This document shows, piece by piece, positions 7,973 through 57,049 of a DNA stretch of 64,000 bases. This DNA comes from Methyloversatilis thermotolerans. GTDB taxonomy: Bacteria > Pseudomonadota > Gammaproteobacteria > Burkholderiales > Rhodocyclaceae. The stretch's first letter is position 1. Every line of letters begins with the position of its first letter. The position numbers and the translations under genes are program-made. The notes under the pieces were generated by a model. That model had not been told where the DNA came from. It ran no database searches and saw only the letters and a list, made by a program, of their open reading frames with translations. The stretch spans positions 2,352,655 to 2,416,654 of the forward strand of contig NZ_KB889967.1 in assembly GCF_000372885.1 (NCBI RefSeq). The letters run 5' to 3'.

Positions 7973-8663
7973 GCGCGCATTCATCGGCTGCGTTCGCGGC
8001 CTGGGCGAGCTTATGTGGGAGCGGCCTCTGGCCGCGATGTGGCGCATGCAGGCCGCAGGCTTCGTTCCAGGCTGAATCGCGGGCAAGCCCGCTCCCACCA
8101 AACCCTGGCTCCGTTCGTGTTTGCCGCGAGCTCACCCGCTATCCCGGCTCCGTTCGCGGCCTGGGCGCGCTTACGTGGGAGCGGCCTCTGGCCGCGATGC
8201 AGCGCATGCAGGCCGCAGGCTTCGTTCCAGGCTGAATCGCGGGCAAGCCCGCTCCCACCACACCCTGGCTCCGTTCTTGTTTGCCGCGAGCTCACCCACT
8301 ATCCCGGCTCCGTTCGCGGCCTGGGCGAGCTTTTGTGGGAGCGGCCTCTGGCCACGATGCGGCTTATGCCGGCCGCAGGCTTCGTTCCAGGCTGAATCGC
8401 GGGCAAGCCCGCTCCCACCACACCCTGGCTCCGTTCGTGTTTGCCGCGAGCTCACCCACTATCCCGGCTCCGTTCGCGGCCTGGGCGAGCTTTTGTGGGA
8501 GCGGCCTCTGGCCGCGATGCAGCACATGCAGGCCGCCGGCTCCATCCCGGGCTGCATCGCGGGCAATACGGCCCTCGGCTCCGGTCAAGGTGACGAAATC
8601 CCGGCCATCTGTTCTACCATCCGGGGGTTGCGGGCGCCGACGCCCGTTCCGGCACAGGACGCG
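7973..8663. other. Gene-free interval filled by a repeat array
   Basis: About 690 bases between moaC and the CYTH-CHAD gene carry no credible gene. Open frames here run through the 160-bp repeats in several frames and encode near-identical copies of the same low-complexity peptide, as expected when a repeat whose length is not a multiple of three is translated. The last 95 bases before 8664 are non-repetitive and should contain the promoter of the downstream gene; I see no clear -35/-10 pair. Confidence 0.85.
7983..8567. repeat. Tandem array of 160-bp units containing paired REP-like palindromes
   Basis: Units begin with GTGGGAGCGG at 8015, 8175, 8335 and 8495, an exact 160-bp period. Three units are complete; the left edge has only the unit's tail and the fourth copy decays after about 70 bases. 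Each unit holds two facing stem-loops: GTGGGAGCGGCCTCTGGCC followed by GCGAT, and ATCGCGGGCAAGCCCGCTCC followed by CAC. This is the BIME arrangement of two inverted REPs. The REP core resembles REP families well known in Pseudomonas. Copies differ at only a few positions, so expansion is recent. Confidence 0.9.
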
Positions 8664-12871: not shown

Positions 12872-13384
<513 letters not shown>

Positions 13385-13435: not shown

Positions 13436-13451
13436 TGCAAGGCGGATGCCA
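13436..13451 (-). promoter_or_regulatory. Sigma-54 promoter of the pilin gene
   Basis: Read on the reverse strand the sequence is TGGCATCCGCCTTGCA. It matches the -24/-12 consensus TGGCAC-N5-TTGC with the GG and GC doublets correctly spaced. Predicted transcription start is near 13425, giving a leader of about 41 bases before the pilin ATG. Type IV pilin genes are commonly driven by sigma-54 and PilR. Confidence 0.8.
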
Positions 13452-13558: not shown

Positions 13559-13573
13559 TGACAAAAATTGTCA
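13559..13573. promoter_or_regulatory. Perfect dyad at the end of the HD-GYP gene, upstream of the pilin
   Basis: TGACAAAAATTGTCA has 6-bp arms around AAA and overlaps the stop codon of the HD-GYP gene. It is about 140 bases upstream of the pilin transcription start. Similar TGACAAA half-sites recur at the start of the MSHA-like operon near 53571. It could be an operator or the stem of a weak hairpin. Confidence 0.35.
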
Positions 13574-15205
13574 GTTGGCGGGGGTCGGCGCGGGGTTGTA
13601 GCCGGGGATGGCGTCGAGGTCGACCGCGTCTATCTGCTCAGGGTCGAGGAACAGTTCGGCGTAGCGCAGATAGACCTGCTTGCGCACGAACACGTCGAAC
13701 AGGTCGGGATCGATATGGCCGTTGAGGCGGAACTTGCCGAGGATGTGCAGCGCCTCGGACAGTTTCATCGGCTTCTTGTACGGCCTGTCCTTGGCGGTGA
13801 GCGCCTCGAAGATGTCGGCGATGCCCATGACGCGCGCCTGCACGCTCATTTCCTCGCGGGTCAGGCCGCGCGGATAGCCCTTGCCATCCATGCGTTCGTG
13901 ATGACCGCCGGCGTATTCCGGCACATTGGTCAGGTGACGCGGCCAGGGCAGCGCTTCAAGCATGCGTATCGTCGATACGATGTGGTAATTGATGATTTCG
14001 CGTTCGGCAGCGGTCAGCGTGCCGGCGCGTATCGTGAGGTTGTCCACCTCGTCGGCGCTCAGACAGGGCTGGGTCCGGCCGCTGCTGTCGGTCCATGACC
14101 AGCGCGCGGCGATGGCCTGAACGCGGGCCACATCGCCATCGCTCATGCGTTCGGACCCGATATTGGCCTGGCGCAGGAAGAGCCGGTCGGCATCCAGCGC
14201 CTGCATGCGCGCGGCAGCCGCGGATTCGAAGTCGGCGCGCCGGCCGGGCTCGGCGGCACAGGCGCGCAGCGTGTCGATCTCGATGTCGCGCCGTATCAGG
14301 CCGAAACGGGTGTCTATCAGTTCGATGCGATCGAATATGGTCTGCAGCTTGGTCGCCTTGTCGACCACATGGACCGGCGTGGTCACCTTGCCGCAGTCGT
14401 GCAGCAGGCCGGCGATCTTCAGTTCGTAGCGATCGGCGTCGCTCATCGTGAAATCGGCCAGCGGACCGTCGCGCGTGTCATTCACCGCCTCGGCCAGCAT
14501 CATGGTGAGCGTGGGCACACGCTGGCAATGGCCGCCGGTATAGGGCGACTTTTCGTCGATGGCGTTGTTGATGAGGGTGATGAAGGATTCGAACAGTTGT
14601 TCGAGCTGGCTCACCAGATGTCGGTTGGTGAGTGCGATCGCCGCCTGCGAGGCCAGCGATTCGGCCAGCTTGCGATCGGAACCGGAAAACACGCCAACCT
14701 CGCCGGTCACCGGATGCAGCGCATTGATGAGCTGCAGCACGCCGATCACCGCGCCTTCGTGATTCATCATCGGCACGGTCAGGAAGCTGGTGGAGCGATA
14801 ACCGGTGCGCGCATCGAAGTCGCGCGTGCCGGAAAAGTCGAAGCCTTCGGCCGCGTAGGCATCGGCGATGTTCACGGTACAGCGGTTCAGCGCGCTGTAG
14901 GCCGCCACCATGGACAGATTGGGCGTGCCGTCATCGCGATGCAGCGGCAGCGGTGCAAAGGGTATCGGGCGGCCGCTGCTGCCGCCCATCGCGATGCCCA
15001 GCGAATCGGTGCGCATGATTTCGAAGCGCAGATGTCCGCCCGCTTCGTCTGTGCGGTAAAGCGTGCCGCCATCGGCATGGGTGATGGCCTTGGCCGCCAG
15101 CAGTATCTTTTCGAGCAGGGCTTCGATATTGCGCTCGTTCGACAGTGCCGCGCCGATCTCGTTGAGATCCTCAAGCCGCCGCAACAGATCGTCGAGCTTG
15201 TCCAT
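13571..15205 (-). CDS. GAF and HD-GYP domain protein, putative cyclic-di-GMP phosphodiesterase
   Basis: This 544-residue cytoplasmic protein has a GAF sensor domain (about residues 1-200) followed by an HD-GYP hydrolase domain. The metal-binding HD is in LLHDCGKVTTP (about 268) and the signature in HHERMDGKGYPRGL (about 432-445). HD-GYP proteins hydrolyse c-di-GMP. Between the HD motif and LTAAEREIINYH there are roughly 100 more residues than in a compact HD-GYP domain. The start is the ATG before DKLDDLLRRLEDL. The gene sits between the pilin promoter and the GAF-ATPase gene, 8 bases from the latter, so probably in one operon with it. Confidence 0.87.
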   Translation of the reverse strand: MDKLDDLLRRLEDLNEIGAALSNERNIEALLEKILLAAKAITHADGGTLYRTDEAGGHLRFEIMRTDSLGIAMGGSSGRPIPFAPLPLHRDDGTPNLSMVAAYSALNRCTVNIADAYAAEGFDFSGTRDFDARTGYRSTSFLTVPMMNHEGAVIGVLQLINALHPVTGEVGVFSGSDRKLAESLASQAAIALTNRHLVSQLEQLFESFITLINNAIDEKSPYTGGHCQRVPTLTMMLAEAVNDTRDGPLADFTMSDADRYELKIAGLLHDCGKVTTPVHVVDKATKLQTIFDRIELIDTRFGLIRRDIEIDTLRACAAEPGRRADFESAAAARMQALDADRLFLRQANIGSERMSDGDVARVQAIAARWSWTDSSGRTQPCLSADEVDNLTIRAGTLTAAEREIINYHIVSTIRMLEALPWPRHLTNVPEYAGGHHERMDGKGYPRGLTREEMSVQARVMGIADIFEALTAKDRPYKKPMKLSEALHILGKFRLNGHIDPDLFDVFVRKQVYLRYAELFLDPEQIDAVDLDAIPGYNPAPTPAN

Positions 15206-15213
15206 CGCGGCGC

Positions 15214-17592
15214 CTACTTGATGCAGACCGAACGGACCTGCTTCATGTCGGTGAGCCCCGACAGCACCTTTTCCATGCCATCCATCTTCAGCGTGCGCAT
15301 GCCTTCTTCCAGCGCGGTGGCCAGCATGGTCGCCACACGCTCGCGCTCCTGGATGTTCTTCTTGATGCGGTCGGTGCCTATCATCAGTTCGTGCAGGCCG
15401 AGCCGGCCGCGGTAGCCGGTATTGCCGCATTCGGCGCAGCCCTGGGCGCGATACAGCGTGAAGCGCCCCTTGTCGTCGGCGTAGGCCTTGATCCAGGCCT
15501 TCAGGATGCGGTCCTTGGCGGCTTCGGCATCGATCTTGAATTCGCTGGTATTGCCCAGTTCCTCGCTGTATTCGTCGAGGAAGTGCTTCATTTCCGCCGC
15601 GTCCGGGTGATAGGGCTGCTTGCAACTCGGGCACAGCCGCTTGGCGAGGCGCTGCGCCAGTATGCCGAGCAGCGCGTCGGCAAAGTTGAACGGGTCCATG
15701 CCCATGTCGAGCAGGCGGACGATGGATTCGGGCGCGCTGTTGGTGTGCAGCGTGGAGAACACCAGGTGACCGGTCAGCGAGGCCTCGATGCCTATGGCCA
15801 CCGTTTCCTTGTCGCGCATTTCACCGACCATGATCACATCCGGGTCGGCGCGCAGGAAGGCGCGCATGATGGCGGCGAAATCCAGGCCCGCCTTCTTGTT
15901 GATCTGCACCTGGCGCAGACCCTTCTGCGTGATTTCCACCGGGTCCTCGGCGGTCCAGATCTTGGTTTCCGGCGTATTGATATGGCTCAGTATGGAATGC
16001 AGCGTGGTGGTCTTGCCGGAGCCGGTCGGGCCGCACACGAAGAACAGGCCGTAGGGCTTGCTCACCGCATTCTTCAGACGCTCGAGGTTGTGCGGCAGCA
16101 CGCCCAGCTTGTCCATCGGTATCGGTTCGCCGGCCGCGAGTATGCGCATCACCACGTCTTCGACACCGCCGGCCGACGGGATGGTGGCCACCCGCAGCTC
16201 GATGTCCAGCGGGCCGAACTTGCGGAACTTGATCTTGCCGTCCTGCGGCTTGCGACGCTCGGAAATGTCGAGATCGCACATGATCTTGAGCCGGGTGACC
16301 AGCGCGCTGCGATAGCTGGCCGGCACTTCGATATAGGGGTGCAGCGAACCGTCCTTGCGGAAGCGCACCTGGGTCTTGTCCTTGCCCGGGCGCGGTTCGA
16401 TGTGGATGTCGGACGCGCCCTGCTGGTAGGCATCGACGATGATCTTGTTCACCAGCCGCACCAGTTCGTTGTCGGCCGCCGCGCTGACATCGTCACCGCC
16501 GGCATCGAGCGCATCGTCCTCCTGCCCGGCCATGTCGGACAGCAGGTCGCCGACCGTGGTGTCGTCCATCGCGGTGCCGCCATAGAACTGATCCAGCGTC
16601 TGCACGAATTCGCGCGTCGTGGTGACGCGGAAATTGAGCTTTGCCTTCGGGAAGATGTTGTTCACGACACGCGAACTGCGCACCTTCTCCGGGTCAAGCG
16701 CGACGATGCCTATGCCTTCCGACGTTTCCTCGACCGGCACCCACTGCTGTTCCTCGAGGTATTCGCGCTTCAGGTTCTTGATCAGATCGAACGGCTTTAC
16801 CCGTTCGCTCTTGAAGGTTTCGTAGGCCACGCCGAAGAATTTGGCGAGCGAAGCGCCTATGGCCGGCAGCTTGACCTGGAAGTCGCGCACCAGCACGTCC
16901 TCGATGTCTATGCCCTTGCGCCGCGCGGCGCGCGACGCGAGATCGAATTCCTGCGCCGACATGACACCATCGACCACCAGGTAGTCGTACTTCGACTTCA
17001 CCACGTGGGCCGGCTTGCTGCGCTGCTGGAACGCCACCGCCAGCGTATGGGCCATGCTCAGCAGGCCTTCCTCGGCCAGTGGCGAGAAGGGCTGGCCGGC
17101 CTTGTTGTTGATCAGTTGCACCACGCCGAGCAGATCCTTCTTGTCCGGATCGACGATGGGCGCCACCAGCATCTGCTGGGTGCGATAGCCGGTCTTCCTG
17201 TCCACGCCATCGAGGAACTTCAGGCTGGGAGAGTGGCTGTGCAGCTCGGCTTCGTCGTAGACGTCGCGGATGTTCAGCAGCTTGCGGCTCATCGCGACGA
17301 AACCGGCGATGGACTGCTCGGTCAGCGGCAGGCGCAGGTCCTTGAAGGAATTGAGGCCGGTCTTCACCTTGGACACGATGGTCGAGCGATCGTCGCCGAG
17401 CACATAGATGGTGAGGCGGTCGGCATTGAACAGCGCAGAAATGTCCTGCGACAGCTCAAGCATGATTTCGTCGATATTGGTCGTGGCGTGGATACGCGTC
17501 GTCACGCCCTGCAGGTTCTTGAAGAACGCAAGACGGCTGGACACGTCGCTCATCGTGGCCAGATCGCTGGCGGGAGGTACCACTGCACTCAT
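15214..17592 (-). CDS. GAF-domain GspE/PilB-type secretion or pilus ATPase
   Basis: This 792-residue protein has a GAF domain at about residues 20-190, a T2SS-E N-terminal-like domain at about 210-345 and a GspE-type hexameric motor from about 395. The motor has Walker A GPTGSGKTTT (about 520), an Asp box in WTAEDPVE, Walker B in DPDVIMVGEMRD (about 580) and the zinc tetracysteine CPSC (about 650) with CAEC (about 719). Such ATPases power pilus or pseudopilus assembly. Fusion to a GAF sensor is unusual, since ordinary PilB or GspE lacks it. The ATG at 17592 was chosen because upstream residues do not resemble protein. Confidence 0.88.
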   Translation of the reverse strand: MSAVVPPASDLATMSDVSSRLAFFKNLQGVTTRIHATTNIDEIMLELSQDISALFNADRLTIYVLGDDRSTIVSKVKTGLNSFKDLRLPLTEQSIAGFVAMSRKLLNIRDVYDEAELHSHSPSLKFLDGVDRKTGYRTQQMLVAPIVDPDKKDLLGVVQLINNKAGQPFSPLAEEGLLSMAHTLAVAFQQRSKPAHVVKSKYDYLVVDGVMSAQEFDLASRAARRKGIDIEDVLVRDFQVKLPAIGASLAKFFGVAYETFKSERVKPFDLIKNLKREYLEEQQWVPVEETSEGIGIVALDPEKVRSSRVVNNIFPKAKLNFRVTTTREFVQTLDQFYGGTAMDDTTVGDLLSDMAGQEDDALDAGGDDVSAAADNELVRLVNKIIVDAYQQGASDIHIEPRPGKDKTQVRFRKDGSLHPYIEVPASYRSALVTRLKIMCDLDISERRKPQDGKIKFRKFGPLDIELRVATIPSAGGVEDVVMRILAAGEPIPMDKLGVLPHNLERLKNAVSKPYGLFFVCGPTGSGKTTTLHSILSHINTPETKIWTAEDPVEITQKGLRQVQINKKAGLDFAAIMRAFLRADPDVIMVGEMRDKETVAIGIEASLTGHLVFSTLHTNSAPESIVRLLDMGMDPFNFADALLGILAQRLAKRLCPSCKQPYHPDAAEMKHFLDEYSEELGNTSEFKIDAEAAKDRILKAWIKAYADDKGRFTLYRAQGCAECGNTGYRGRLGLHELMIGTDRIKKNIQERERVATMLATALEEGMRTLKMDGMEKVLSGLTDMKQVRSVCIK

Positions 17593-17642
17593 CGCATCAC
17601 CTTCCCTTCCGATCACGACAGGCTGCACGGCGCAGGCTGCGG

Positions 17643-18410
17643 TCAGAAGTCGAAAACATGATTGTTGCGCAACATGCGCGGCATGTGTTCGCCGAGCGTG
17701 TCCATCACCTCGCGCATGGTCATGTCCATCTGGCTGGGCTTGAGATGGGTGATGTGGATCTGCGCCGGATGCCGGAGCTTGGTCAGTTCCTTCGCCAGCA
17801 GTTCCGGGCACAGATGGCGCGACATCACGGCAAGCTGCCGGTCGCGGTCGGGAAAGGCGGTTTCGATGATCAGATGGCGCAGATCGGGCAAGGCATTGAC
17901 GGCGGCCCAGAATTCATCGCACGCCGTGGTATCGCCGGAAAACGCCAGCGTGCCGCCCGGGCCGCGCACCGCGTAACCGACCGCAGGCACGGTGTGCAGG
18001 GCCGGCAGCACGCGAATGGCGCGGCTGCCCATGTCGATCTCGTCCCCCACCTTCAGTTCGCGAAAACACATGAAGGGCTTGTCGACCGACGGGATTTCGG
18101 TGAAATCGGGCCAGATCGACCAGTTGAAGATGTGCCGGCGCAGCACTTCCAGCGTCGCCGCGGTGGTCCATACGGTCAGAGGACGCTCGCGCAGGTCGCC
18201 CACGGTATCGATCATGAGCGGCAGGCAGGCGATGTGATCGAGATGGCTGTGCGTCACGAACACATGGTCGATCCGGGCGAGCTCGGCCAGAGCAAGGTCG
18301 CCGACGCCGGTGCCGGCATCGATCAGGATGTCGTCGTCGACGAGCAGCGAGGTTGTGCGCAGATGTGCGCCACCAATACCACCGCTGCAACCGAGCACAC
18401 GTATCCGCAT
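17643..18410 (-). CDS. Metallo-beta-lactamase-fold hydrolase, class II cyclic-nucleotide phosphodiesterase-like
   Basis: This 255-residue protein has the di-zinc motif HSHLDH (His54, His56, Asp58, His59), a third ligand in LHTVPAVGYAV, SGDTT and a C-terminal HITHLKP. Motif spacing fits class II 3',5'-cyclic-nucleotide phosphodiesterases (CpdP/PDE1-like), although RNase Z-like hydrolases share the fold. It is 16 bases downstream of an adenylate cyclase gene on the same strand, which makes cAMP breakdown a reasonable inference. It has no signal peptide, so it is cytoplasmic. Confidence 0.8.
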   Translation of the reverse strand: MRIRVLGCSGGIGGAHLRTTSLLVDDDILIDAGTGVGDLALAELARIDHVFVTHSHLDHIACLPLMIDTVGDLRERPLTVWTTAATLEVLRRHIFNWSIWPDFTEIPSVDKPFMCFRELKVGDEIDMGSRAIRVLPALHTVPAVGYAVRGPGGTLAFSGDTTACDEFWAAVNALPDLRHLIIETAFPDRDRQLAVMSRHLCPELLAKELTKLRHPAQIHITHLKPSQMDMTMREVMDTLGEHMPRMLRNNHVFDF

Positions 18411-18426
18411 CTGCCGTCCGTAATCG

Positions 18427-20664
18427 CTATTTCGTTTCGAAGGTTCTCACACCATCCCAGCCCTTGCCGGGCGGAAAACGGCGGTAATGTCCTATCTGTT
18501 CCGCGTAGGCAGCGTACAGCAGACAATCCGGCGCCATGCGTTGCAGATTGAACAGGGACAGTTCTGCCTGATCCCATTCCTGCGCCCTGAATTGCCGCAG
18601 CGCCTGATTCCAGAGCTTCAGTTCCTCGATACGCCCGCGGTCGAATTCCGCCTCGAATGCCAGCGGCTCGTGTATGGACACCGGTTCGTCCTTGCCCTTC
18701 ACCCGCACGCGGTCGATTTCCCGGAACACGATGCCCTTGACCGCGCGCCGGGTGTCCTCTCCCACCAGGATGCCCACACCGTACTGCTTGGTGAGCCCCT
18801 CCAGCCGGGACGCCAGATTGACCGCATCCCCCAGTACTGTATAAGCCTTGCGCACCGGCGAACCCATGTCGCCCACGGTCATCGTGCCGCTGTTCACACC
18901 GATGCCTATCTTCAGTTCCGGCCAGCCGCGGGCGGTCAGTGAGCGGTTGAGCTCGTCCAGCCGCTGCTGCATGTGCAGCGCCGCCGTCACGCCGTGCTGC
19001 GCATGATCGGCGTCGTCCACCGGCGCGCCCCAGAAAGCCATGATGGCGTCGCCGATGTATTTGTCGAGCGTTCCGCGCTGATCCTGAATGACCGACGTCA
19101 TGGCACCGAGGTATTCGTTCATGAGTCGCGTCAATTCGCGAGGTTCCAGGCCCTCGGAAATGCCGGTGAACCCCCGCACGTCGGAAAACATCACGGTGAG
19201 CTCGGCGGTGCGGGCATCCATGCTGTAGTGCTCGGGGTTTCGGCTCATTTCTTCCACCAGTTCGGGCGGTACATACTGGCCGAACATGCGGGCGAACTGC
19301 CTCTTCGAGCGCGCTTCGACGAAATAGCCGTAGAACATGTTCAGCGCGTACAGGCCGGCCACCATGAGCAGACTGGCAGCGACCGGCAGCACGAAATCGG
19401 CGTACTGCCAGAACGCGAAGTTCATCGCCACCAGCAGCACCAGCACGACGGCCGACAGACCGGTGGCACGCAGCGGCGACAGGCGCGGCAGCAGGAACAG
19501 CAGCAGGCCGCCGACCAGCGCCAGCACCACCACGTCGAATCCGGTCACGTACTGCGGCCGGTGCTTGATGCGGCCGTCCAGCATGCCGGCAATCAGGTTG
19601 GCGTGTATCTCGACGCCGGGATAGGTGCCGCTCACCGGCGTGGCGCGCAGGTCGAGCAGACCGGGCGCGGTGGTGCCCAGCAGCACGATGCGTCCCTTCA
19701 GCGCCTCCACCGGGGTGCGCCCGGCGAGCACATCGGCCAGCGAATGGTAGGCAAAGCTGCCCTGACGGCCGCGGAAGGGAATGAGCGCGGCCACGTTCTC
19801 GTCGACCGGAATGCGCAGCGTGCCCTGCTTCGCGCTCAGTTCCAGCCACTCCAGTCCGGCGTAGTCGCGCGGCGACACCGACATGAAGGACGCCTCCGCA
19901 TAACCGGGCGCAAGCTTGGGACTGCCGAGCAGGGTACGGACCATGGCCAGCGACAGTGACTCGTAATAGGCCCCCTTGTACTCGACCAGCATGGGCACGC
20001 GGCGGTTCAGGCCATCGAAATCGGGCAGCGGATTGAAATGACCGGCACCCAGCGCCGCGCTCTGGAAGGCGGGCAGATTGGCGCCGAAACTGTCGAAGCG
20101 CGCAAACGCGATGGAGCGGCCGCGGAAGGTACCGGCCGGCAGTACCGGCTCGGGCAGTTGCCCGGTACTCAGCCCTTCGCCCCGATCGCTGAAGTAATAG
20201 CCGAGCAGCACGGGGCGATCCTTCAGCGCGGCGGCAAACAGGCGATCGTGGTCGAGAGAGGGCCGCAAGCGCTCGAGTTCACCGCGGAAGGCATCGTTGT
20301 CGGCGAGCGTGCCGCGCGCGAGCGCCTCCAGCGCCGGCAGGCCGGAACTGGTGTCCGCCTCGGCGAACACCACGTCCACACCCAGCAGAAGGACGCCGTA
20401 ATGGTCGAACAGGCGGTCAAGCAGCGTCGCGAGGCGCTCGCGTCCCCAGGGCCAGCGTCCGACCTCGGCCAGCGAGCGCTCGTCGATATCGAGAATGGCA
20501 ATCCGATCATCACGCGTGCCCGGCATGGTGAGCGCGAGCTTGGTGTCGTAGGCGATCAGATCCAGATTGCCCAGCACCGGCAGGCTGTAGAAGCGCGCCG
20601 CGTGGCCGAGCAGCAGCAGGATGAGGGCGAGCCCCAGCCCGTAGCGCAGGGCGTGCTGCCTCAC
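18427..20664 (-). CDS. CHASE2-domain class III adenylate cyclase
   Basis: This 745-residue membrane protein has an N-terminal transmembrane helix (LGLALILLLLGHAA), a periplasmic CHASE2 sensor to about residue 360, then hydrophobic helices at about 368-440 and a cytoplasmic class III cyclase domain at about 480-660. Metal-binding Asp residues are in FSDVRGFTG (about 491) and YIGDAIMAFWG (about 535). The preceding Lys (LDKYIGD) and the Thr of YTVLGDAVNLASRLE are the adenine-selecting type, so it should make cAMP. The GTG at 20664 begins a normal membrane leader; a longer frame would overlap the FHA gene. Confidence 0.87.
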   Translation of the reverse strand: MRQHALRYGLGLALILLLLGHAARFYSLPVLGNLDLIAYDTKLALTMPGTRDDRIAILDIDERSLAEVGRWPWGRERLATLLDRLFDHYGVLLLGVDVVFAEADTSSGLPALEALARGTLADNDAFRGELERLRPSLDHDRLFAAALKDRPVLLGYYFSDRGEGLSTGQLPEPVLPAGTFRGRSIAFARFDSFGANLPAFQSAALGAGHFNPLPDFDGLNRRVPMLVEYKGAYYESLSLAMVRTLLGSPKLAPGYAEASFMSVSPRDYAGLEWLELSAKQGTLRIPVDENVAALIPFRGRQGSFAYHSLADVLAGRTPVEALKGRIVLLGTTAPGLLDLRATPVSGTYPGVEIHANLIAGMLDGRIKHRPQYVTGFDVVVLALVGGLLLFLLPRLSPLRATGLSAVVLVLLVAMNFAFWQYADFVLPVAASLLMVAGLYALNMFYGYFVEARSKRQFARMFGQYVPPELVEEMSRNPEHYSMDARTAELTVMFSDVRGFTGISEGLEPRELTRLMNEYLGAMTSVIQDQRGTLDKYIGDAIMAFWGAPVDDADHAQHGVTAALHMQQRLDELNRSLTARGWPELKIGIGVNSGTMTVGDMGSPVRKAYTVLGDAVNLASRLEGLTKQYGVGILVGEDTRRAVKGIVFREIDRVRVKGKDEPVSIHEPLAFEAEFDRGRIEELKLWNQALRQFRAQEWDQAELSLFNLQRMAPDCLLYAAYAEQIGHYRRFPPGKGWDGVRTFETK

Positions 20665-20740
20665 GCCACCGCCCCGGGGCGCCCGCGCTGTGCATGACCG
20701 GGCCGTCGCACCGGGCTCACCGGAAGCATGGCGTCGCCAC

Positions 20741-21520
20741 TCAGCGCTTGATGAAGAACTCCATCTTGACGCCCGCAATCTCGATCACGTCGTGATCGTT
20801 CAGCGGATGCGCCTGGGCATCGAGCTGGGCACCATTGACCACCGGGAAGCTGGCACCCTCGACATGGGTGATGAAATAGCCTTGCGGACGGCGGGTGATC
20901 ACCGCCACCTGCAGCCCTGGTTTGCCCAGCGTGGTCAAGGTCTTGGTCAGTTCGAGTTCGCGACCCGCATTGGCGCCATTGAGTATCTGTATCGCCCCGA
21001 TCTGGCTCGCTGCGGTCGGCGCCGGAGCAGGTGCCGGCGGCGGGGGCGGAGACGGCGGCAATCCGCCGCCCATCGACGTGCCGGCGGGAACCGATGCACC
21101 GGCGCGGAAACCGGCCTGGGTTTCGGTCAGTCCGCGTGCCGGCGCCGCGGGCGCATCGGCGGGCGGCTTGCGCATCATGTCCGGGCGCAGCACCATGGTT
21201 TTCTCGAAATCCGGCGACGGCGCCTGGCTGGGCGTGTCGTTGATGTACTTCAGGCGGTACTTGCCCAGTTCGACCACGTCGTTGTTCTGCAGGAAATGCT
21301 TCTTGATCGGCTGCCCGTTCACATAGGTGCCGTTGGTGCTGTTCAGGTCTTCGAGGAAGGAATCGTTCAGTATGGTCACGATCACCGCGTGCTCGCCGCT
21401 GATCGCCAGATTGTCGATCTGGATGTCGTTGTGCGGCTTGCGGCCTATGGTCGTGCGCTCCTTGGAGAGCGGAAGTTCCTTCAGGACCAGACCGTCCATG
21501 CTGAGTATGAGTTTTGCCAT
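20741..21520 (-). CDS. Protein with two FHA domains
   Basis: This 259-residue protein has an N-terminal FHA domain with the conserved phosphothreonine-binding residues (TTIGRKPHNDIQID, ISGEHAVI, LNSTNGTYVNG, about 20-85). A Pro/Ala-rich linker (about 125-165, including PPSPPPPPAPAPAP) is followed by a second, degenerate FHA-like domain. Thr residues in FEKTMVLRP resemble the regulatory phosphosites of FHA adaptors. It is likely a substrate or reader for the neighbouring Ser/Thr kinase and PP2C phosphatase. The start at 21520 follows the AAAGGA site; the gene starts 11 bases after the PP2C stop. Confidence 0.88.
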   Translation of the reverse strand: MAKLILSMDGLVLKELPLSKERTTIGRKPHNDIQIDNLAISGEHAVIVTILNDSFLEDLNSTNGTYVNGQPIKKHFLQNNDVVELGKYRLKYINDTPSQAPSPDFEKTMVLRPDMMRKPPADAPAAPARGLTETQAGFRAGASVPAGTSMGGGLPPSPPPPPAPAPAPTAASQIGAIQILNGANAGRELELTKTLTTLGKPGLQVAVITRRPQGYFITHVEGASFPVVNGAQLDAQAHPLNDHDVIEIAGVKMEFFIKR

Positions 21521-21531
21521 TTTCCAGTCCT

Positions 21532-22335
21532 TTACTTCAACCATGCGAGCAGGCGCGACAACACGCCACGCGGCGCCACCGGGAAGGGTTGCAGCACCTT
21601 CACCAGTATCACCGACACGTTGTCGCGCCCGCCATTGTCGTTTGCCATCTGCACCAGTTGATCGGCCGCAAGATCGAGATTGGCCGACAGGGCCTGCAGG
21701 GTGAGAGAGATGTCCTCGCCCTCGACCATGTCGTTCAGGCCATCGGAACAGAAAAGATAGACGTCGCCTGCCTCGACATCATAAGTGTGGATTTCCGGCT
21801 CGACGATCGGATCCACGCCCAGCGCCCGCGTCACGAGGTTCTTGTTCTGTGATCGCCGCGCTTCTTCCTCTGTAATCATGCCGCTGTCGATTTGCTCCTG
21901 CAACAGCGAATGATCGCGCGTGATGCACTCGAGCTGTTCGCCGCGCATGCGGTACATGCGGGAATCGCCGATATGCGCGACGGATATACGGTTATCGTGG
22001 AATACCGCCATCACCAGCGTAGTGCCCATGCCGGAATACTGGGGCTGGCTGTCGGCGGCCCGATAGATCGCCTCGTTGGCGCTGGCAATCACGGTCTCGA
22101 TCAGTGCCGGCAACGATTTGCGCCCCTCGCGGAGTCCCTGCGCAATTTCGGTGCCGATGACGGCGGTGGCCATGCCGCTGGCGACCTCGCCAGCGTTGTA
22201 GCCACCCATGCCGTCAGCCAGAATCGCCACGCCAATCGTGGCGTCGGTCATCACGGCATCCTCGTTGTGCGTGCGAACCATGCCGGCGTCGGTGCGGCTC
22301 ACCATCCGGAGGGCTTGGCTGAGATCCTGTGTCAT
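21532..22335 (-). CDS. PP2C-family protein serine/threonine phosphatase
   Basis: This 267-residue cytoplasmic PP2C has the metal-coordinating motifs RTHNEDAV (about 21-28), ILADGMGGYNAGE (about 39-51), AHIGDSRMYRM, FCSDGLNDMV and NGGRDNVSVI. It should dephosphorylate targets of the CHASE2 kinase encoded one base upstream (kinase stop at 22337, phosphatase ATG at 22335). The FHA gene follows 11 bases later. This kinase-phosphatase-FHA set is a known co-occurring module. No regulatory domain is fused to it. Confidence 0.93.
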   Translation of the reverse strand: MTQDLSQALRMVSRTDAGMVRTHNEDAVMTDATIGVAILADGMGGYNAGEVASGMATAVIGTEIAQGLREGRKSLPALIETVIASANEAIYRAADSQPQYSGMGTTLVMAVFHDNRISVAHIGDSRMYRMRGEQLECITRDHSLLQEQIDSGMITEEEARRSQNKNLVTRALGVDPIVEPEIHTYDVEAGDVYLFCSDGLNDMVEGEDISLTLQALSANLDLAADQLVQMANDNGGRDNVSVILVKVLQPFPVAPRGVLSRLLAWLK

Positions 22336-22336
22336 G

Positions 22337-24922
22337 TCAGATGCTGAAATCGACCTGCGAAAGGGATTGGGTGAAGCTGCCGGCGCAGGCGCGCAGGTCG
22401 GACGCCATGTCGTTGCCGGTCTGGTAGCGCGCATCGGCCTCCTTCGCCAGCGCCCGGTCGAGGATGGCGGCGAGACAGTCGGGCACATCCGGGCGCAGGT
22501 CGCGAATGTCGGGATGCGGCTCGTTGGCGATGCGGAACATGAGTTGCGCCATTGAATCGCCTTCGAAAGGCAGCTTGCCGGACACCAGCTGGAACAGCAT
22601 GACGCCCAGCGAAAACAGGTCCGAGCGCCCGTCGATCTTCTTGCCGGCGAGCTGTTCGGGCGACATGTAGGACGGTGTGCCCAGCACCATGCCGGTCTTG
22701 GTGCGCGACGAATCGGTGATGCGGGCGATGCCGAAATCGGTCACCTTGATCTGATCCGATTCCGGCTCGTACATGATGTTGGCCGGCTTCACGTCGCGAT
22801 GCACGACGTTCTGCCCGTGCGCGTAAGCCAGCGCATCGGCCACGCGCGCGACGATGTCCATCACCTTGGGCAAGGGCATGAGCGCGCCGGGCTTGGTCTG
22901 CGGCACCAGGTCGCGCCCCTTCAGGAACTCCATCGCGATGTAGGCGAGATCGTGTTCCTCGCCCGCGTCGAATATCGTGACGATGTTCGGGTGGTTGAGC
23001 CGACCGGCCGTTTCCGCCTCGCGGAAGAAACGCTGCTTGACGTCGGCCAGTTCGTCCTCGTCGAATTCCTGCGACAGGGCCATGGTCTTGATCGCCACGA
23101 CGCGATTGATCTTGGGATCGCGCCCGAGGTAGACCACGCCCATGGCGCCTTTGCCCAGTTCCTTCTCGACCTGGTAGCGCCCCAGCATGGGCTTTTCCAC
23201 GGTGCCATCGTCGAGCATGCTGGCATTGGTGCGCCCGCCGCCCGCGCCGCCGAGCATGACGGTTTCCGACATGGCCTTGGCGCGCTTGACGCGGGTTTCC
23301 AGGTCCTTGAATTTCGGGTCGAACCCGGCCATGTGACGGAACACCGTCTCGGCCTTGTTGAACTGGCGCTTGCGTTCGAAGTCGAGTGCCAGGTTGTACA
23401 GATTGTCCATGACCGCGTCCGACAGCGGCACCAGCCGGAACTTGTCCCACGCCATGTCGAGCTGGCCCTGCCCTTGGAAGGCCAGCGCCAGCATGCGGTT
23501 GGATTCGGCCGACTGTTCGTCCGACTTCACCTTGCCGCGCTCGGTCAGGAAGAAACGCTTTGTGGTGAGCAGCAGATGGCCGACCAGCAGCAGGGTGGCC
23601 GGCAGCATGAGCTGAAGCCACATGAGCTGCCTCGTCATCAGCACGAAATGCGTGGCCAGCAGGGCGGCGAACAGCACGGCGGTCACCGCGGCGCCGATGC
23701 CGGCCTTCAGCCGCGGCAACAACACGATGAGATAGAGGGCGACCAGCACGAACACGCCGAACTCGGCCGCCCCCGCCCACGGCGGTACGACGAAGAAGTG
23801 CTCCTGCAGGATGCTGGACAGCCCGTGCGCCATCACCTCGACCGAGGACATTGCCGGAGACACCGGCGTCGCATAGAAATTGCCGATGCCCGGAGCGGTC
23901 TGTCCGATCAGCACGATCTTGTCGCGATACTTGTCGGCCGGAATCTTGCCGGTCAATACATCGAAGAAGGAATCCACCGGAAAGGCCGGTTTGCCGTCGG
24001 CTCCGCGGTAGTAGAAGCTGTACATGCCCAGCCCGGGATCGGTGGCGATGTTGAGCTTGCCGAGCGCGACCGATTCCCCCAGCGTGAGCCGGATGTCATC
24101 GACCGCCAGATTCAGGCTGCGCGCCGCGAGCAACAAGGGCAGCGACGGATAGAACTGGTCGAAATGGGTCATCACCAGCGGCTGCACGCGCAAGCCGCCA
24201 TCGCGGTCGATCAGTGGATTGAGGTGACCCACCGCTGCAGCGACCTTGCCCAGCGGCTCGATGACCCCTGCGGCGACGTCCAGCGTCAGCGGCGGCAAGG
24301 GTTCGCTGCCCGCCACGTTCTTCAGCGCCATCGCACGCATGAAATCGGGCAGCGGCTTGTCCGGTCGGCCCTGCGGCTCACCGTCCTGGAACAGCATCGG
24401 CAAGGCGACATTGCCGGCTCGCGCCACGCTGTCGGCCAGGCGCCGGTCCGTGTTGAGTGCCGCCTCGGCTTCGTGCAGCACGCCGGAAAAGGCTTCGAGC
24501 GCGGCAGCCGGGGCGGTCGGCGCATCGCCGTCCATCGCCTCGCCTGCCGGCGGCACTGCGGCACGCGCTTCGCGCTCGATCGCGATCAGTTTGTTGATAT
24601 AGGCAAGACCGGGATCGATCTGGGGTTCGGCGAAAAAAATGGTGGTGCCGACCACCTTGGCCCGAGCTTGGCCGAGGGCGTCGATCATCTTCGCATGCAC
24701 ATCGCGCGGCCAGGGCCAGCGGCCGATGTTGTCGATGCTGCGCTGGTCGATCGCGATCACGGCGATGCGCGGGCTGGGTGAGCGGTCAGTGGCCGCCACC
24801 GCGACATCGTAGGCCTTGCGCTCCAGACTCTGGATGAGATCGCCGGATGCCGCGAACAGAAGGACGAGGCTGATGGCCAAGCCGAGAAACCAGTCGGTCT
24901 TCCAGATTGCGGCCCTGGTCAC
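22337..24922 (-). CDS. CHASE2-domain membrane serine/threonine protein kinase
   Basis: This protein of about 861 residues has an N-terminal membrane helix (FLGLAISLVLLFAASG), a periplasmic CHASE2 domain to about 370, transmembrane helices at about 377-447, a short TPR-like stretch at about 480-555 and a C-terminal Hanks-type kinase from about 585. Kinase motifs are GKGAMGVVYLG, VAIKTM, HRDVKPANIM (about 706), DFGIAR (about 727) and MSPEQ. Order is reversed compared with the usual kinase-TM-sensor proteins. No ATG lies near the N-terminus; the GTG at 24922 has an AGGGGG site about 7 bases upstream and was chosen. It is first in the reverse-strand signalling operon. Confidence 0.88.
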   Translation of the reverse strand: MTRAAIWKTDWFLGLAISLVLLFAASGDLIQSLERKAYDVAVAATDRSPSPRIAVIAIDQRSIDNIGRWPWPRDVHAKMIDALGQARAKVVGTTIFFAEPQIDPGLAYINKLIAIEREARAAVPPAGEAMDGDAPTAPAAALEAFSGVLHEAEAALNTDRRLADSVARAGNVALPMLFQDGEPQGRPDKPLPDFMRAMALKNVAGSEPLPPLTLDVAAGVIEPLGKVAAAVGHLNPLIDRDGGLRVQPLVMTHFDQFYPSLPLLLAARSLNLAVDDIRLTLGESVALGKLNIATDPGLGMYSFYYRGADGKPAFPVDSFFDVLTGKIPADKYRDKIVLIGQTAPGIGNFYATPVSPAMSSVEVMAHGLSSILQEHFFVVPPWAGAAEFGVFVLVALYLIVLLPRLKAGIGAAVTAVLFAALLATHFVLMTRQLMWLQLMLPATLLLVGHLLLTTKRFFLTERGKVKSDEQSAESNRMLALAFQGQGQLDMAWDKFRLVPLSDAVMDNLYNLALDFERKRQFNKAETVFRHMAGFDPKFKDLETRVKRAKAMSETVMLGGAGGGRTNASMLDDGTVEKPMLGRYQVEKELGKGAMGVVYLGRDPKINRVVAIKTMALSQEFDEDELADVKQRFFREAETAGRLNHPNIVTIFDAGEEHDLAYIAMEFLKGRDLVPQTKPGALMPLPKVMDIVARVADALAYAHGQNVVHRDVKPANIMYEPESDQIKVTDFGIARITDSSRTKTGMVLGTPSYMSPEQLAGKKIDGRSDLFSLGVMLFQLVSGKLPFEGDSMAQLMFRIANEPHPDIRDLRPDVPDCLAAILDRALAKEADARYQTGNDMASDLRACAGSFTQSLSQVDFSI

Positions 24923-53570: not shown

Positions 53571-53605
53571 TGACAAATGCATTATTTGTCACGCCCTGTG
53601 ACAAA
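53571..53605. promoter_or_regulatory. Three alternating TGACAAA half-sites at the start of the MSHA-like operon
   Basis: TGACAAA (53571-53577), its complement TTTGTCA (53585-53591) and TGACAAA again (53599-53605) occur at an exact 14-base pitch with 7-base spacers. They form two overlapping perfect inverted repeats. The cluster covers the first possible ATG of the secretin gene, so it may be an operator. Confidence 0.5.
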
Positions 53606-55322
53606 GAGCCCACCGGTGACCACTGCCGCCCGGATATTCATCCTCCTCGCCCGTACCGCATCGCTCGCGTGCCGCAAACCGGCTGCGCTCTGCATGCTTG
53701 CGCTGGCGGCCGGCTGCGCGGCACCGGTTCCGCGGCCGCTTTCGCCGGCCCACATCCTGGCCGGGCAGGTCGCGCCGGCGCCCGCTGCGGCCATCCCGGA
53801 GCCAGTCGCCACACCCGCCGTCGAGCAGGCGCTGCCGGCTGAACCGGAGGAACACTACAGCGTGACGGTGAGCCGGCTCGAGGTCGGGGATCTGCTGTTT
53901 GCCCTGGCGCGCGACGCCGACATCGACCTCGACCTGCATCCGGCGGTGCGCGGAACCGTAACGCTGAACGCGACCGACCAGACCTTGCGCCAATTGCTCG
54001 ACCGCATTGCCGGCCAGGTACCGCTGCACTACACCTTGCGAGGGCGATGGCTGGTCGTTCTGCCCGACGAGCCGGTGCTGCACAGCTACCGCGTCGATTA
54101 CGTCAACATGAGTCGCGACGTGACCGGCACGGTGTCGATCAACACGCAGATCGCCGCCACCAGCTCCGCGGCCGGAACTGCGGGATCACCCGCTCCGGCA
54201 AGCGGCAACGCCGGCAACAGCTCGAGCACCCGCATCGAGAATTTCGCACGCAACCGCTTCTGGGAGACGCTGGAAGCCAACATCCGCGCCCTGCTGGCGG
54301 ATTCGTCCGCGGCCCAACCGGCGGCCGGTGACGCGGGAGCCGGTCCGGCAACTGCCGCAGCGCCCTCACTCGTCATCGTCAATCCGGAAACCGGCGTGCT
54401 GACAGTACGGGCGACCCGACGGCAGCACCAGCGCATTCAGTCCTTCATCGACGAAGTTGCCCGTATCGCGAGGCGTCAGGTGCTGATCGAAGCGACCATC
54501 GCGGAGGTCCAACTGACCGACAACTACCAGCAGGGCATAGACTGGACGGCTTTCGCCGGCGGCGGACGACGCGGCGGCGCGGTGTTGTCGCTCAACCCGG
54601 CGGGCAACGAATTGAGCGCCAATCCGCCTTTCGCCTTCGGCCTCGGGCGCAATCGCGAACTGATCGACAGCATCCGCCTGCTGCAGGCCTACGGTGACGT
54701 GAAAGTGCTGTCCAGCCCCAAGCTTTCGGTGCTGAACAACCAGACCGCCCTGCTTAAGGTGGTGAACAACATCGTGTACTTCGAAATCAAGTCCGATGTG
54801 GTGGCCAATACCAATACCCAGGCCGTGCGCAGCTTCAGCGCGACGCCGCGCTCGGTGTCGGTCGGCCTGGTCATGGCGGTCACTCCGCAGATCAGCGCCG
54901 ACGGGCATGTCCTGCTCAACGTCCGCCCCACCATTTCGCGCAAGGTGGGCGATGCCCAGGACCCGACGCCCGAACTGGCCACCCCCAATCTGGTACCGGT
55001 GATCCAGACACGCGAACTCGAATCGGTCATGCGCGTGGCCAGCGGCGAGACCGCCGTGCTGGGCGGCCTGATGCAGGACGAAATCAACTATCGCCAGGAC
55101 ACGGTGCCCGGACTTTCTTCACTGCCGCTGATCGGCCGCTTGTTCGCCGCGCGCAATGAAACCGCCCGCAAGAGCGAACTGGTGGTGCTCATCCGGCCCG
55201 TGGTGGCCGACGACGATGGCGGGCAGCCGACGGCTGCGCTGCCCGCAGGCGCGATACCCGACCGTCGCTTCCTCGCGCCGTCCTTTCCGGCCGGACGTCC
55301 GGACGCGGACTCCGCACCATGA
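53577..55322 (+). CDS. mshL: MSHA-type pilus secretin, MshL-like
   Basis: This secretin-family outer-membrane protein has up to 581 residues. It has an N-terminal hydrophobic leader ending in LALAAGC (lipobox Cys47), an STN-like domain (about 100-165), an N-domain with a Ser/Gly/Ala-rich insert and the C-terminal secretin barrel (RQVLIEATIAEVQLTDNYQQ, VLSSPKLSVLNNQTALLKV, GETAVLGGLMQDE). It forms the channel for a type IV pilus or type II secretion-like machine. The start is uncertain: the ATG at 53577 lies inside the half-site cluster, and a GTG at 53616 gives a shorter lipoprotein leader. Confidence 0.85.
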   Translation: MHYLSRPVTKSPPVTTAARIFILLARTASLACRKPAALCMLALAAGCAAPVPRPLSPAHILAGQVAPAPAAAIPEPVATPAVEQALPAEPEEHYSVTVSRLEVGDLLFALARDADIDLDLHPAVRGTVTLNATDQTLRQLLDRIAGQVPLHYTLRGRWLVVLPDEPVLHSYRVDYVNMSRDVTGTVSINTQIAATSSAAGTAGSPAPASGNAGNSSSTRIENFARNRFWETLEANIRALLADSSAAQPAAGDAGAGPATAAAPSLVIVNPETGVLTVRATRRQHQRIQSFIDEVARIARRQVLIEATIAEVQLTDNYQQGIDWTAFAGGGRRGGAVLSLNPAGNELSANPPFAFGLGRNRELIDSIRLLQAYGDVKVLSSPKLSVLNNQTALLKVVNNIVYFEIKSDVVANTNTQAVRSFSATPRSVSVGLVMAVTPQISADGHVLLNVRPTISRKVGDAQDPTPELATPNLVPVIQTRELESVMRVASGETAVLGGLMQDEINYRQDTVPGLSSLPLIGRLFAARNETARKSELVVLIRPVVADDDGGQPTAALPAGAIPDRRFLAPSFPAGRPDADSAP

Positions 55323-57049
55323 ACGACGCCGCAGTCCCCGCTCGCCTGCCACTCGGCCAATGGCTGGAGTCGCGCGGCCTGATCAGCGCGGACCAGTTAC
55401 GCATCGCTCTGCGCGAACAGACTCGCCACGCACGCCCCATGGGGCGGGTGCTGATCGACCTCGGCTTCATCAGCGAGGGCATCCTGCGCGATGCGCTCGG
55501 CCAGTCGCTCGGACACGCCTCGATAGATCTCGACCAGGTGCTGCCGGATCCGGCCGCCCTCGCCCGCCTGCCGGAGCGTGTCGCCCGCCAGCACCGCGTG
55601 CTTCCGGTGAGCTGCAGCGAGGACGGCCGGCAGATGACGGTGGCGATGGCCGACATCCACGACATTGTGGCGCTCGATGTGATGCGTGACATGCTGCCGC
55701 ACGACGCTACGCTGACAACGCTGCTGGCCGGCGAGGGCGAACTCGCCCAGGCGATAGACCGCAGCTACGGCCACGCGCTATCGATCGAACACATCCTGGC
55801 CGAACTGGAAAACCACGGTCCGGAGCAGGCGAATCGGGTGGCCCAGGATGGCAGCCCGCCCGTGGTACGCCTGGTCGACGCACTGCTGATCGACGCGGTG
55901 AAGCGCGAAGCGTCGGACATCCATTTCGAACCCGAAGCCGGCTTCCTGCGCATCCGCTACCGCATCGACGGCCTGCTGCGCCAGATACGCGCGCTGCATG
56001 CAAGCTGCTGGCCCGCCATGGCGGTGCGCATCAAGGTGATGGCCGGTATGAACATCGCCGAACACCGGGCCCCGCAGGACGGGCGCCTTTCGCTGCACGT
56101 GAGCGGCCGCGCCATCGATCTGCGCGTGTCGTCGCAACCCACGCTGCACGGCGAGAACATCGTCCTGCGCATACTCGACCGGGCGCGCGGCATCGTACCG
56201 CTGGACAGCCTGGGACTGAGCGAGCCGACGCGACAGGCGCTCACCCTGCTGATGGCCCGGCCGGAAGGGCTGATCCTGGCGACCGGCCCCACCGGCAGCG
56301 GGAAAACCACCACGCTGTACTCGCTGCTGAATCACCTGAATCACGAGGGTGTGAACATCATGGCGCTCGAGGATCCGGTCGAATACCCGATGCCGCTGAT
56401 GCGACAGACTTCCGTAGTGGAGGCGGCACGGCTCGACTTCGCCAACGGCATCCGATCGATGATGCGCCAGGACCCCGACATCATCCTGGTGGGCGAGATC
56501 CGCGATGCCGACACCGCCGGCATGGCTTTCCGCGCGGCCATGACCGGACACCAGGTGTACTCGACGCTGCACAGCAACTCGGCGCTCGGCGCGCTGCCCC
56601 GGCTGCTCGATCTGGGTGTCCGGCAGGACGTGCTGGCGGGCAATCTGATCGGCGTGATCGCACAACGATTGCTGCGCCGCCTGTGCCCGGAATGCAGCCA
56701 GCCACGCATTGCCGGCGCGGCCGACATGCGCCTGCTTGGAATGGCCGCGGATACGGCCCCCGTCGTGCTGCGCGATGCCGGAGGTTGTCCGGCCTGCGAC
56801 TTCACCGGCTATCGCGGCCGCTTCGCCGTAATGGAAATCCTGCGCATCGACGCCGGGCTGGAAGGACTCATCGGCACCGGCGCGAGTGCGGCCGAATTGC
56901 GACGGGCGGCCGGCACAGGGCTGCGCAGTCTGGCCGACGAGGGCGCTGACGCCGTGCTGGCGGGGCGTACTTCCCTGGCCGAGCTGTGTCGCGTGATCGA
57001 CATGTCGTCCCGTCTGGCCGGATTGCACGCAGAGAGGGGCGCATCGTGA
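55319..57049 (+). CDS. mshE: MSHA pilus assembly ATPase, MshE-like
   Basis: This 576-residue GspE-type motor has an N-terminal domain with two tandem MshEN-like 24-residue motifs (from PLGQWLESRG, about 11-34, and PMGRVLIDLG, about 40-63), the c-di-GMP-binding element of MshE. The motor has Walker A GPTGSGKTTT (about 323-332), the Asp box MALEDPVEYP, Walker B DPDIILVGEIRD and the zinc Cys pairs CPEC and CPAC. Motif 1 begins with Pro where MshE has Arg, so c-di-GMP binding needs testing. It overlaps mshL and mshG by 4 bases. Confidence 0.92.
   Translation: MNDAAVPARLPLGQWLESRGLISADQLRIALREQTRHARPMGRVLIDLGFISEGILRDALGQSLGHASIDLDQVLPDPAALARLPERVARQHRVLPVSCSEDGRQMTVAMADIHDIVALDVMRDMLPHDATLTTLLAGEGELAQAIDRSYGHALSIEHILAELENHGPEQANRVAQDGSPPVVRLVDALLIDAVKREASDIHFEPEAGFLRIRYRIDGLLRQIRALHASCWPAMAVRIKVMAGMNIAEHRAPQDGRLSLHVSGRAIDLRVSSQPTLHGENIVLRILDRARGIVPLDSLGLSEPTRQALTLLMARPEGLILATGPTGSGKTTTLYSLLNHLNHEGVNIMALEDPVEYPMPLMRQTSVVEAARLDFANGIRSMMRQDPDIILVGEIRDADTAGMAFRAAMTGHQVYSTLHSNSALGALPRLLDLGVRQDVLAGNLIGVIAQRLLRRLCPECSQPRIAGAADMRLLGMAADTAPVVLRDAGGCPACDFTGYRGRFAVMEILRIDAGLEGLIGTGASAAELRRAAGTGLRSLADEGADAVLAGRTSLAELCRVIDMSSRLAGLHAERGAS

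Follow-up and report, generated by a model that had tools for sequence, protein, structure and literature searches.

A conserved gene cluster that seems to connect two envelope sensors with a pilus-type motor with a cyclic AMP-binding-type domain

The stretch of the Methyloversatilis thermotolerans genome analysed here (contig NZ_KB889967.1, 64,000 nucleotides, referred to as the window) contains seven consecutive minus-strand genes, from position 24922 to 13571, that appear to couple a pair of envelope sensors to a pilus motor in which a domain of the type that binds cyclic AMP (cAMP) stands in place of one that binds cyclic di-GMP (c-di-GMP). The run begins with a CHASE2 Ser/Thr protein kinase of 861 residues (22337..24922; Pfam CHASE2 and Pkinase, both 5.9e-53), followed after 1 nt by a 267-residue PP2C Ser/Thr phosphatase of the Stp1/IreP family (21532..22335; NCBIfam NF033484, 252.1 bits against a cut-off of 230) and, 11 nt further on, by an FHA protein (20741..21520) in which one canonical FHA domain (Pfam, 7.8e-23) precedes an E-x-T motif and a conserved C-terminal region. 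A gap of 76 nt leads to a CHASE2 class III adenylate cyclase of 745 residues with an uncertain start codon (18427..20664; Pfam CHASE2 8.6e-53, Guanylate_cyc 5e-23), from which 16 nt separate a 255-residue metallo-hydrolase resembling class II cyclic-nucleotide phosphodiesterases (17643..18410; Pfam Lactamase_B_2 and PDEase_II over cut-off). Then come, after 50 nt, a 792-residue ATPase in which Pfam finds a GAF domain, a divergent MshEN domain and a T2SSE/PilB-type core (15214..17592, with the GAF at 17535-16993; here the GAF motor) and, after 8 nt, a 544-residue GAF-HD-GYP protein predicted to be a c-di-GMP phosphodiesterase (13571..15205; Pfam HD_5 1.6e-41, and GAF). Behind these seven, at a distance of 186 nt and on the same strand, lies a PilA-like type IV pilin gene of 170 codons (12872..13384; Pfam N_methyl and Pilin), with a pattern match to a sigma-54-type -24/-12 site, TGGCATCCGCCTTGC, 52 nt before its ATG (13437..13451, minus strand).

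The initial annotation had the coordinates, order and strand of the seven genes right, its domain assignments are borne out by Pfam, and the pilin gene that it placed next in line is there, its sigma-54-type site as a pattern match. It had also described the gaps as mostly under 80 nt; the six among the seven genes measure 1-76 nt, sizes that depend on the start codon chosen among those listed for each gene. Two of its descriptions needed amendment: the ATPase does have the GAF and GspE/PilB-type parts, and the divergent MshEN domain between them had been omitted; for the supposed double-FHA protein, Pfam detects one FHA domain only and the conserved C-terminal region is FHA-like by eye, which leaves the second domain unproven. 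What it missed is in our view the most telling part of the cluster, namely that the GAF domain of the ATPase looks to be of the cyclic-nucleotide-binding type. A promoter-like site lies ahead of the kinase gene (25075-25046), such sites being comparably frequent in shuffled sequence, and a promoter and terminator scan of the window performed at about chance level, so that it is the short gaps that argue for a single transcript. The kinase is 88% identical to its counterpart in a draft genome of Methyloversatilis discipulorum, and two of the three CHASE2 matches in the genome fall in the cluster.

When the motor GAF was compared with all sequences in the PDB, the best match was the tandem GAF of Anabaena CyaB2 (1ykd), with an E-value of 3.3e-27 over both GAFs and 3.1e-14 for the best single stretch, and the next matches were mainly GAFs of PDE2, PDE6, PDE10 and PDE5. 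Three of the 13 other GAF matches in this genome, taken through the same comparison as controls, gave no CyaB2 match at 0.01; two of them hit NifA-type regulators first, and the third returned one match, at 0.009. The residues of CyaB2 GAFb that contact cAMP, as given in PMC4411481, are R291, T293, I308, D356 and N359, and these align to R59, T61, V76, D131 and T134 of the motor. Across 86 motors (83 distinct), the five positions hold R in 86, T in 85, V or I in 84, D in 86 and T in 86, respectively, so that four of the five contacts are kept in kind (R, T, V/I and D), the contact pattern of a cyclic-nucleotide-binding GAF. Conservation of at least 98.5% is seen in 26 of the 175 GAF columns, and four of the five contact positions are among them (chance of at least four, 1.8e-3). 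Even in nine GAF motors from other taxonomic orders, at 39-44% identity, R, T and D are kept in 9/9. From these residues we infer that cAMP is the probable ligand of the motor GAF and that its binding may alter ATPase activity. An alternative, which we judge unlikely, is that the cluster does regulate a pilus while cAMP acts only through transcription by a CRP-type factor or through the cNMP-binding/rhodanese protein described below, the motor GAF having another ligand or a role in dimerisation. It draws on the NKFDE motif, which is incomplete in the 86 motors (N in 86/86, F in 85/86, E or D at the E position in 84/86, K shifted by one position and present in 68/86, D in 1/86), on the presence in this genome of 14 matches to cNMP-binding domains (13 over cut-off), and on the fact that cAMP control of type IV pili, in the available portion of a 2024 review of PilB control (PMC11656802), is described as transcriptional, via Vfr; PDE2 mutants in the NKFDE motif, moreover, are stated in the accessible text of PMC11977230 to lose cGMP binding. 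It leaves unaccounted for the near-invariance of the contacts in 86 motors, the retention of R, T and D outside the order, and a top match to a cAMP-bound CyaB2 GAF that the three control GAFs missed.

The MshEN domain behind the GAF bears on the same question from the side of c-di-GMP. Known extension ATPases bind c-di-GMP through an MshEN motif of two 24-residue units, a tandem RLGxx...LxxxLxxQ (PMC5013675, as far as its accessible text goes). Of its 22 scored positions the 86 GAF motors match 8-11, as do shuffles of 20 of them, and we reject c-di-GMP binding by the motor MshEN on this ground. Outside the order, a search for related motors showed 28 matches, of which 20 places were fetched; the 11 motors without a GAF score 15-19 of 22, whereas the 9 with a GAF score 7-9. 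A tree of ATPase cores places the GAF motors of this order together with their GAF-less sisters, to the exclusion of the nine GAF motors from elsewhere (0.957), with poor support for the root. Within the motor lineage, GAF presence and loss of the MshEN motif thus coincide in two branches of the tree. The three GAF-less sisters that were scanned (L234, L238 and L244) have about 150 N-terminal residues ahead of the MshEN repeats, with no Pfam domain over cut-off. Elsewhere in the window, an MSHA-type pilus locus (53577-58245, plus strand) encodes an MshL-like secretin, an MshE-like ATPase and a GspF/PilC-like protein, and the c-di-GMP motif of the MshE-like ATPase, at 55319, is largely intact, with a score of 16 of 22.

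The phospho-Thr, cAMP and c-di-GMP enzyme sets proposed in the initial annotation hold up, with active-site motifs conserved in the sequences aligned for kinase, PP2C and cyclase (21) and for HD-GYP (71). Class III cyclases are recognised by metal-binding aspartates and a Lys/Thr purine pair in the catalytic domain; the DKY.GD and AYT motifs of the cluster cyclase are invariant in 21 sequences and, with the Guanylate_cyc match, place it in that class. The hydrolase scores 55.5 bits on PDEase_II (cut-off 23.7), and its HSHLDH fits the HxHLDH motif of class II enzymes. Its top PDB match is the yeast class II phosphodiesterase PDE1 (E 1.9e-9), ahead of RNase Z-type enzymes, in keeping with its earlier description as cyclic-nucleotide-phosphodiesterase-like; among NCBIfam models the highest scores are for RNase Z, all under cut-off, and the equivalog NF041851 gives 39 against a cut-off of 400. 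In the HD-GYP protein the HD and HHE..DG.GY (HHExxDGxGY) residues that define the family are invariant in 71 sequences, and its GAF matches PDE5, CyaB2 and a GAF-HD-GYP structure in the PDB. An extra gene, encoding a cNMP-binding domain fused to a rhodanese domain (four proteins scanned), follows the hydrolase in 29 of 80 loci found through the kinase; in L053 (6065-7147) and relatives it lies between hydrolase and motor. In the search of 200 genomes described below, it is present in 12 of 49 motor clusters with a cyclase and in none of the 41 that lack one (Fisher p 3.7e-4, with no correction for relatedness).

The genome has its own PilB (835.2 bits on TIGR02538), with PilC-like and prepilin-peptidase genes after it, and encodes TfpB as well, so the cluster ATPase is an additional motor. 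The case that it serves a type IVa pilus comes in part from four genomes (G036, G081, G123 and G132; loci L225, L226, L227 and L228), of two families and all draft assemblies, in which a chimeric pilB lies beside pilC (T2SSF) and pilD (A24 peptidase). The first 160-200 residues of these proteins are PilB-like, and the remainder is 74-75% identical to the GAF-motor core compared with 40-41% to the PilB core; one of them scores 578.6 bits on TIGR02538. The four chimeric cores form one clade nested in the GAF motors (0.977 in the ATPase-core tree), which argues against four assembly errors, and the placement of a GAF-motor core in pilB beside pilC and pilD suggests that this core works on the PilC platform, which the cluster ATPase would then share. 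Among 38 distinct loci with room for one, 16 encode a pilin within 1.5 kb downstream of the cluster, and in 10 of those it has a sigma-54-type site; the count omits loci with less than 1.2 kb downstream, fewer than three markers or an identical protein end, and further sigma-54-type pilins occur among such uncounted loci (e.g., L034, L045, L054-L056, L085, L090, L171 and L177). The window holds 32 sigma-54-type patterns, no more than its shuffles do (mean 37.6); what supports the pilA site is the recurrence of such a pattern upstream of pilins in relatives. A different possibility, improbable in our estimation, is that the ATPase powers a type II secretion-like pseudopilus or another filament and that the neighbouring pilin is incidental. 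The ATPase does fall under the PilB, GspE and TfpB cut-offs alike (474.8 against 675.65 bits on TIGR02538, 446.7 against 630.25 on TIGR02533 and 404 against 850 on NF053534), and Pfam finds no pilC, PilC-like or secretin gene among the seven; such a filament would nevertheless be hard to square with four genomes in which the GAF-motor core sits in an ATPase gene beside pilC and pilD, or with the recurrence of sigma-54-type pilins downstream. The C-terminal Gly-Ser tail of the pilin is encoded by nine copies of a 6-bp repeat (12878-12931), whose number could vary between strains; another repeat in the window, a 160-bp unit present 3.6 times, lies at 7985-8566.

The remaining genes of the cluster form a phosphorylation arm whose output may be the same machinery. 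The catalytic motifs of the kinase are invariant in an alignment of 15 sequences, and those of kinase and PP2C are conserved in 21. In the FHA protein, the Thr of the E-x-T motif aligns in 21/21 sequences and the pattern is present in that stretch in 86/89; on the model of GarA/OdhI-type proteins, this Thr is a candidate for phosphorylation. A kinase, a PP2C phosphatase and an FHA reader encoded together also make up the PpkA-PppA-Fha threonine phosphorylation pathway of type VI secretion systems (T6SS). The cluster differs from that pathway in the CHASE2 sensor of its kinase and in an FHA protein that reaches 42 bits on the TagH-type FHA model TIGR03354 (cut-off 120.25), on which basis we reject it as an explanation. 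Anti-phage defence was likewise considered and rejected, the PADLOC matches shown being to kinase and cyclase domains only.

A conserved neighbourhood had been set beforehand as a test of the cluster as a unit, and 200 genomes of the order were searched with six markers (kinase, cyclase, hydrolase, motor, HD-GYP and cNMP-binding/rhodanese), each under a strict E-value limit; the first five are the core markers, and PP2C and FHA lay outside the set. Excluding this genome, the markers were found in 64, 85, 123, 89, 86 and 18 genomes, respectively. A single gene order holds in 73 of 73 clusters with at least three of the six markers, which both passes the test and rules out a chance neighbourhood, and all five core markers occur in one cluster in 37 other genomes. 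Each of the ten pairings of core markers occurs together in more genomes than chance would give (p at most 1.3e-9), and in most cases the two genes are linked on the same strand; these statistics assumed 200 other genomes, this genome probably being among those 200, and the counts exclude four chimeric second matches. Among genomes holding both genes, linkage is tightest for hydrolase and motor (77/81) and for motor and HD-GYP (69/74), and amounts to 63/78 for cyclase and hydrolase, counts that are lowered by the many draft genomes with broken contigs. The arrangement is far beyond chance. Our searches of the open-access literature, judged by title and abstract, yielded no paper that describes this gene cluster. 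It is also present in two draft genomes labelled Bordetella parapertussis (L075 and L123), a label that is probably a binning or naming error.

The same order is seen where members are missing. Twenty loci with two CHASE2 genes close together, in which kinase and cyclase are present by selection, show no deviation from it, with some members absent or past contig ends, and 80 loci found through the kinase keep it with natural variants. Kinase, PP2C, FHA and HD-GYP genes are retained in L111, L115 and L129 with no motor in the fetched stretch, and in L098 with a partial motor core further on. This core (L098:21711-22511), on the strand opposite the kinase cluster, is a cut-off ATPase core with 75% identity to the GAF-motor core, its N-terminus lying beyond view. 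L109 and L132 have the kinase-PP2C-FHA trio with a cyclase on the opposite strand, their fetched stretches holding no motor; L168 has PP2C-FHA-hydrolase-motor with no kinase in the fetched stretch, and L171 has PP2C-FHA-motor-pilin. Because these variants lack members but keep the order, the module is made of parts that come and go within a fixed order. It is quite improbable that two or three independent regulators share the neighbourhood for historical reasons, with the trio controlling something else as in the T6SS pathway: fetched stretches where a motor-less trio accompanies HD-GYP alone or an opposite-strand cyclase, and genomes with motor and hydrolase but no kinase, are what one would expect of such regulators, but an order never scrambled in 73 clusters, a motor in 56 of the 64 kinase genomes and an FHA protein far under the TagH cut-off are not.

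On balance, we consider it somewhat probable that these genes form a conserved module that regulates the type IVa pilus, its output being a dedicated extension ATPase with a cyclic-nucleotide-binding GAF, under direct control by cAMP. In the scheme we propose, the CHASE2 adenylate cyclase would be the sensor of an envelope signal and the source of cAMP, which the metallo-hydrolase would remove as a phosphodiesterase. cAMP would bind the motor GAF, and perhaps that of the HD-GYP protein too, setting pilus extension and local c-di-GMP. In a parallel arm, the CHASE2 kinase would be opposed by PP2C, with targets that may include the FHA protein, which would relay the phospho-Thr state to the same machinery, so that phospho-Thr, cAMP and c-di-GMP signals might converge on the ATPase; the pilin gene behind the cluster would be driven by its own sigma-54 promoter. 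A fuller evolutionary version, in which a cNMP-binding GAF took over from MshEN and rendered the motor directly cAMP-gated, and in which the cyclase, the phosphodiesterase, the kinase/phosphatase/FHA arm and an HD-GYP protein coupling cAMP to c-di-GMP were inherited together with it, we advance tentatively, as a proposal that stops short of probable.

Several observations weigh against direct cAMP control of a pilus motor, beginning with the incomplete NKFDE motif and its importance in PDE2, the score under the PilB cut-off and the missing pilC described above. The position of N359 is T in the motor, that of I308 is Y or F in 9/9 GAF motors of other orders, two of the control GAFs weakly reach a phosphodiesterase entry (3.4e-8 and 6.3e-4), and the contact arginine is absent from the GAF of the HD-GYP protein. 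The GAF-less PilB and TfpB of this genome score 7 and 8 for the MshEN motif, so that absence of the motif is by itself no sign of GAF gain. As regards the neighbourhood, 41 of 90 motor clusters have no cyclase, some owing to contig breaks; the kinase is tied to the motor by gene order only; no pilin follows directly in 22 of the 38 loci that have space for one; and the genomes are related, so that the counts are not independent events. The cNMP-binding/rhodanese gene lies outside the motor cluster in 6 of 18 genomes, once beside the hydrolase alone, and has no match in this genome at 1e-40. In 8 of 9 loci of other orders, the GAF motor has no cluster neighbours. One GAF motor from outside the order, at L250, shares its stretch with homologues of HD-GYP (57%) and of the hydrolase (44%) that are encoded on the opposite strand, which makes a second but isolated association.

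Comparison with known systems helps to define what may be new here. The motor GAF belongs to the same subfamily as those of Anabaena CyaB2, PDE2 and PDE10, with four of five cAMP-contact positions kept in kind, but in those proteins the domain regulates cyclase or phosphodiesterase activity, whereas here a single GAF with an incomplete NKFDE motif is joined to a pilus-type ATPase. The combination of GAF and HD-GYP is found in PDB 4mcw (a "metal dependent phosphohydrolase"), which we take to be a GAF-HD-GYP protein from Persephonella and which the GAF domains of the cluster match; in the present case it is encoded within a conserved pilus-motor cluster. Vibrio cholerae MshE and Myxococcus xanthus PilB are, in the accessible parts of the reports, likewise extension ATPases with an N-terminal second-messenger domain (PMC5013675 and PMC11656802), but the GAF motor has a cNMP-type GAF and no MshEN c-di-GMP motif. 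Acinetobacter baylyi, according to the available text of PMC8213720, has two extension motors, PilB and TfpB; this genome encodes both and, in addition, the GAF motor, which by curated cut-offs is neither. The Pseudomonas aeruginosa Pil-Chp - CyaB - Vfr system also links type IV pili to cAMP and to sensing of the envelope or of surfaces, with cAMP acting on transcription as far as the accessible portion of the 2024 review describes it (PMC11656802), whereas we propose a direct effect on the motor; that portion makes no mention of GAF and presents cAMP as a transcriptional input.

We describe what is, to judge from its domains and neighbours, a putative motor for pilus extension that carries a new regulatory domain and lies inside a conserved signalling module. 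Type IV pili are known to be controlled by cAMP at the level of transcription and by c-di-GMP through the motor or its helpers. If our reading is true, a motor lineage in which a cAMP-type site replaced a c-di-GMP site would illustrate how a nanomachine can be rewired to take its input from a different second messenger, and the cluster would provide a candidate function, in the context of the pilus, for a Ser/Thr phosphorylation set across many little-studied Betaproteobacteria.

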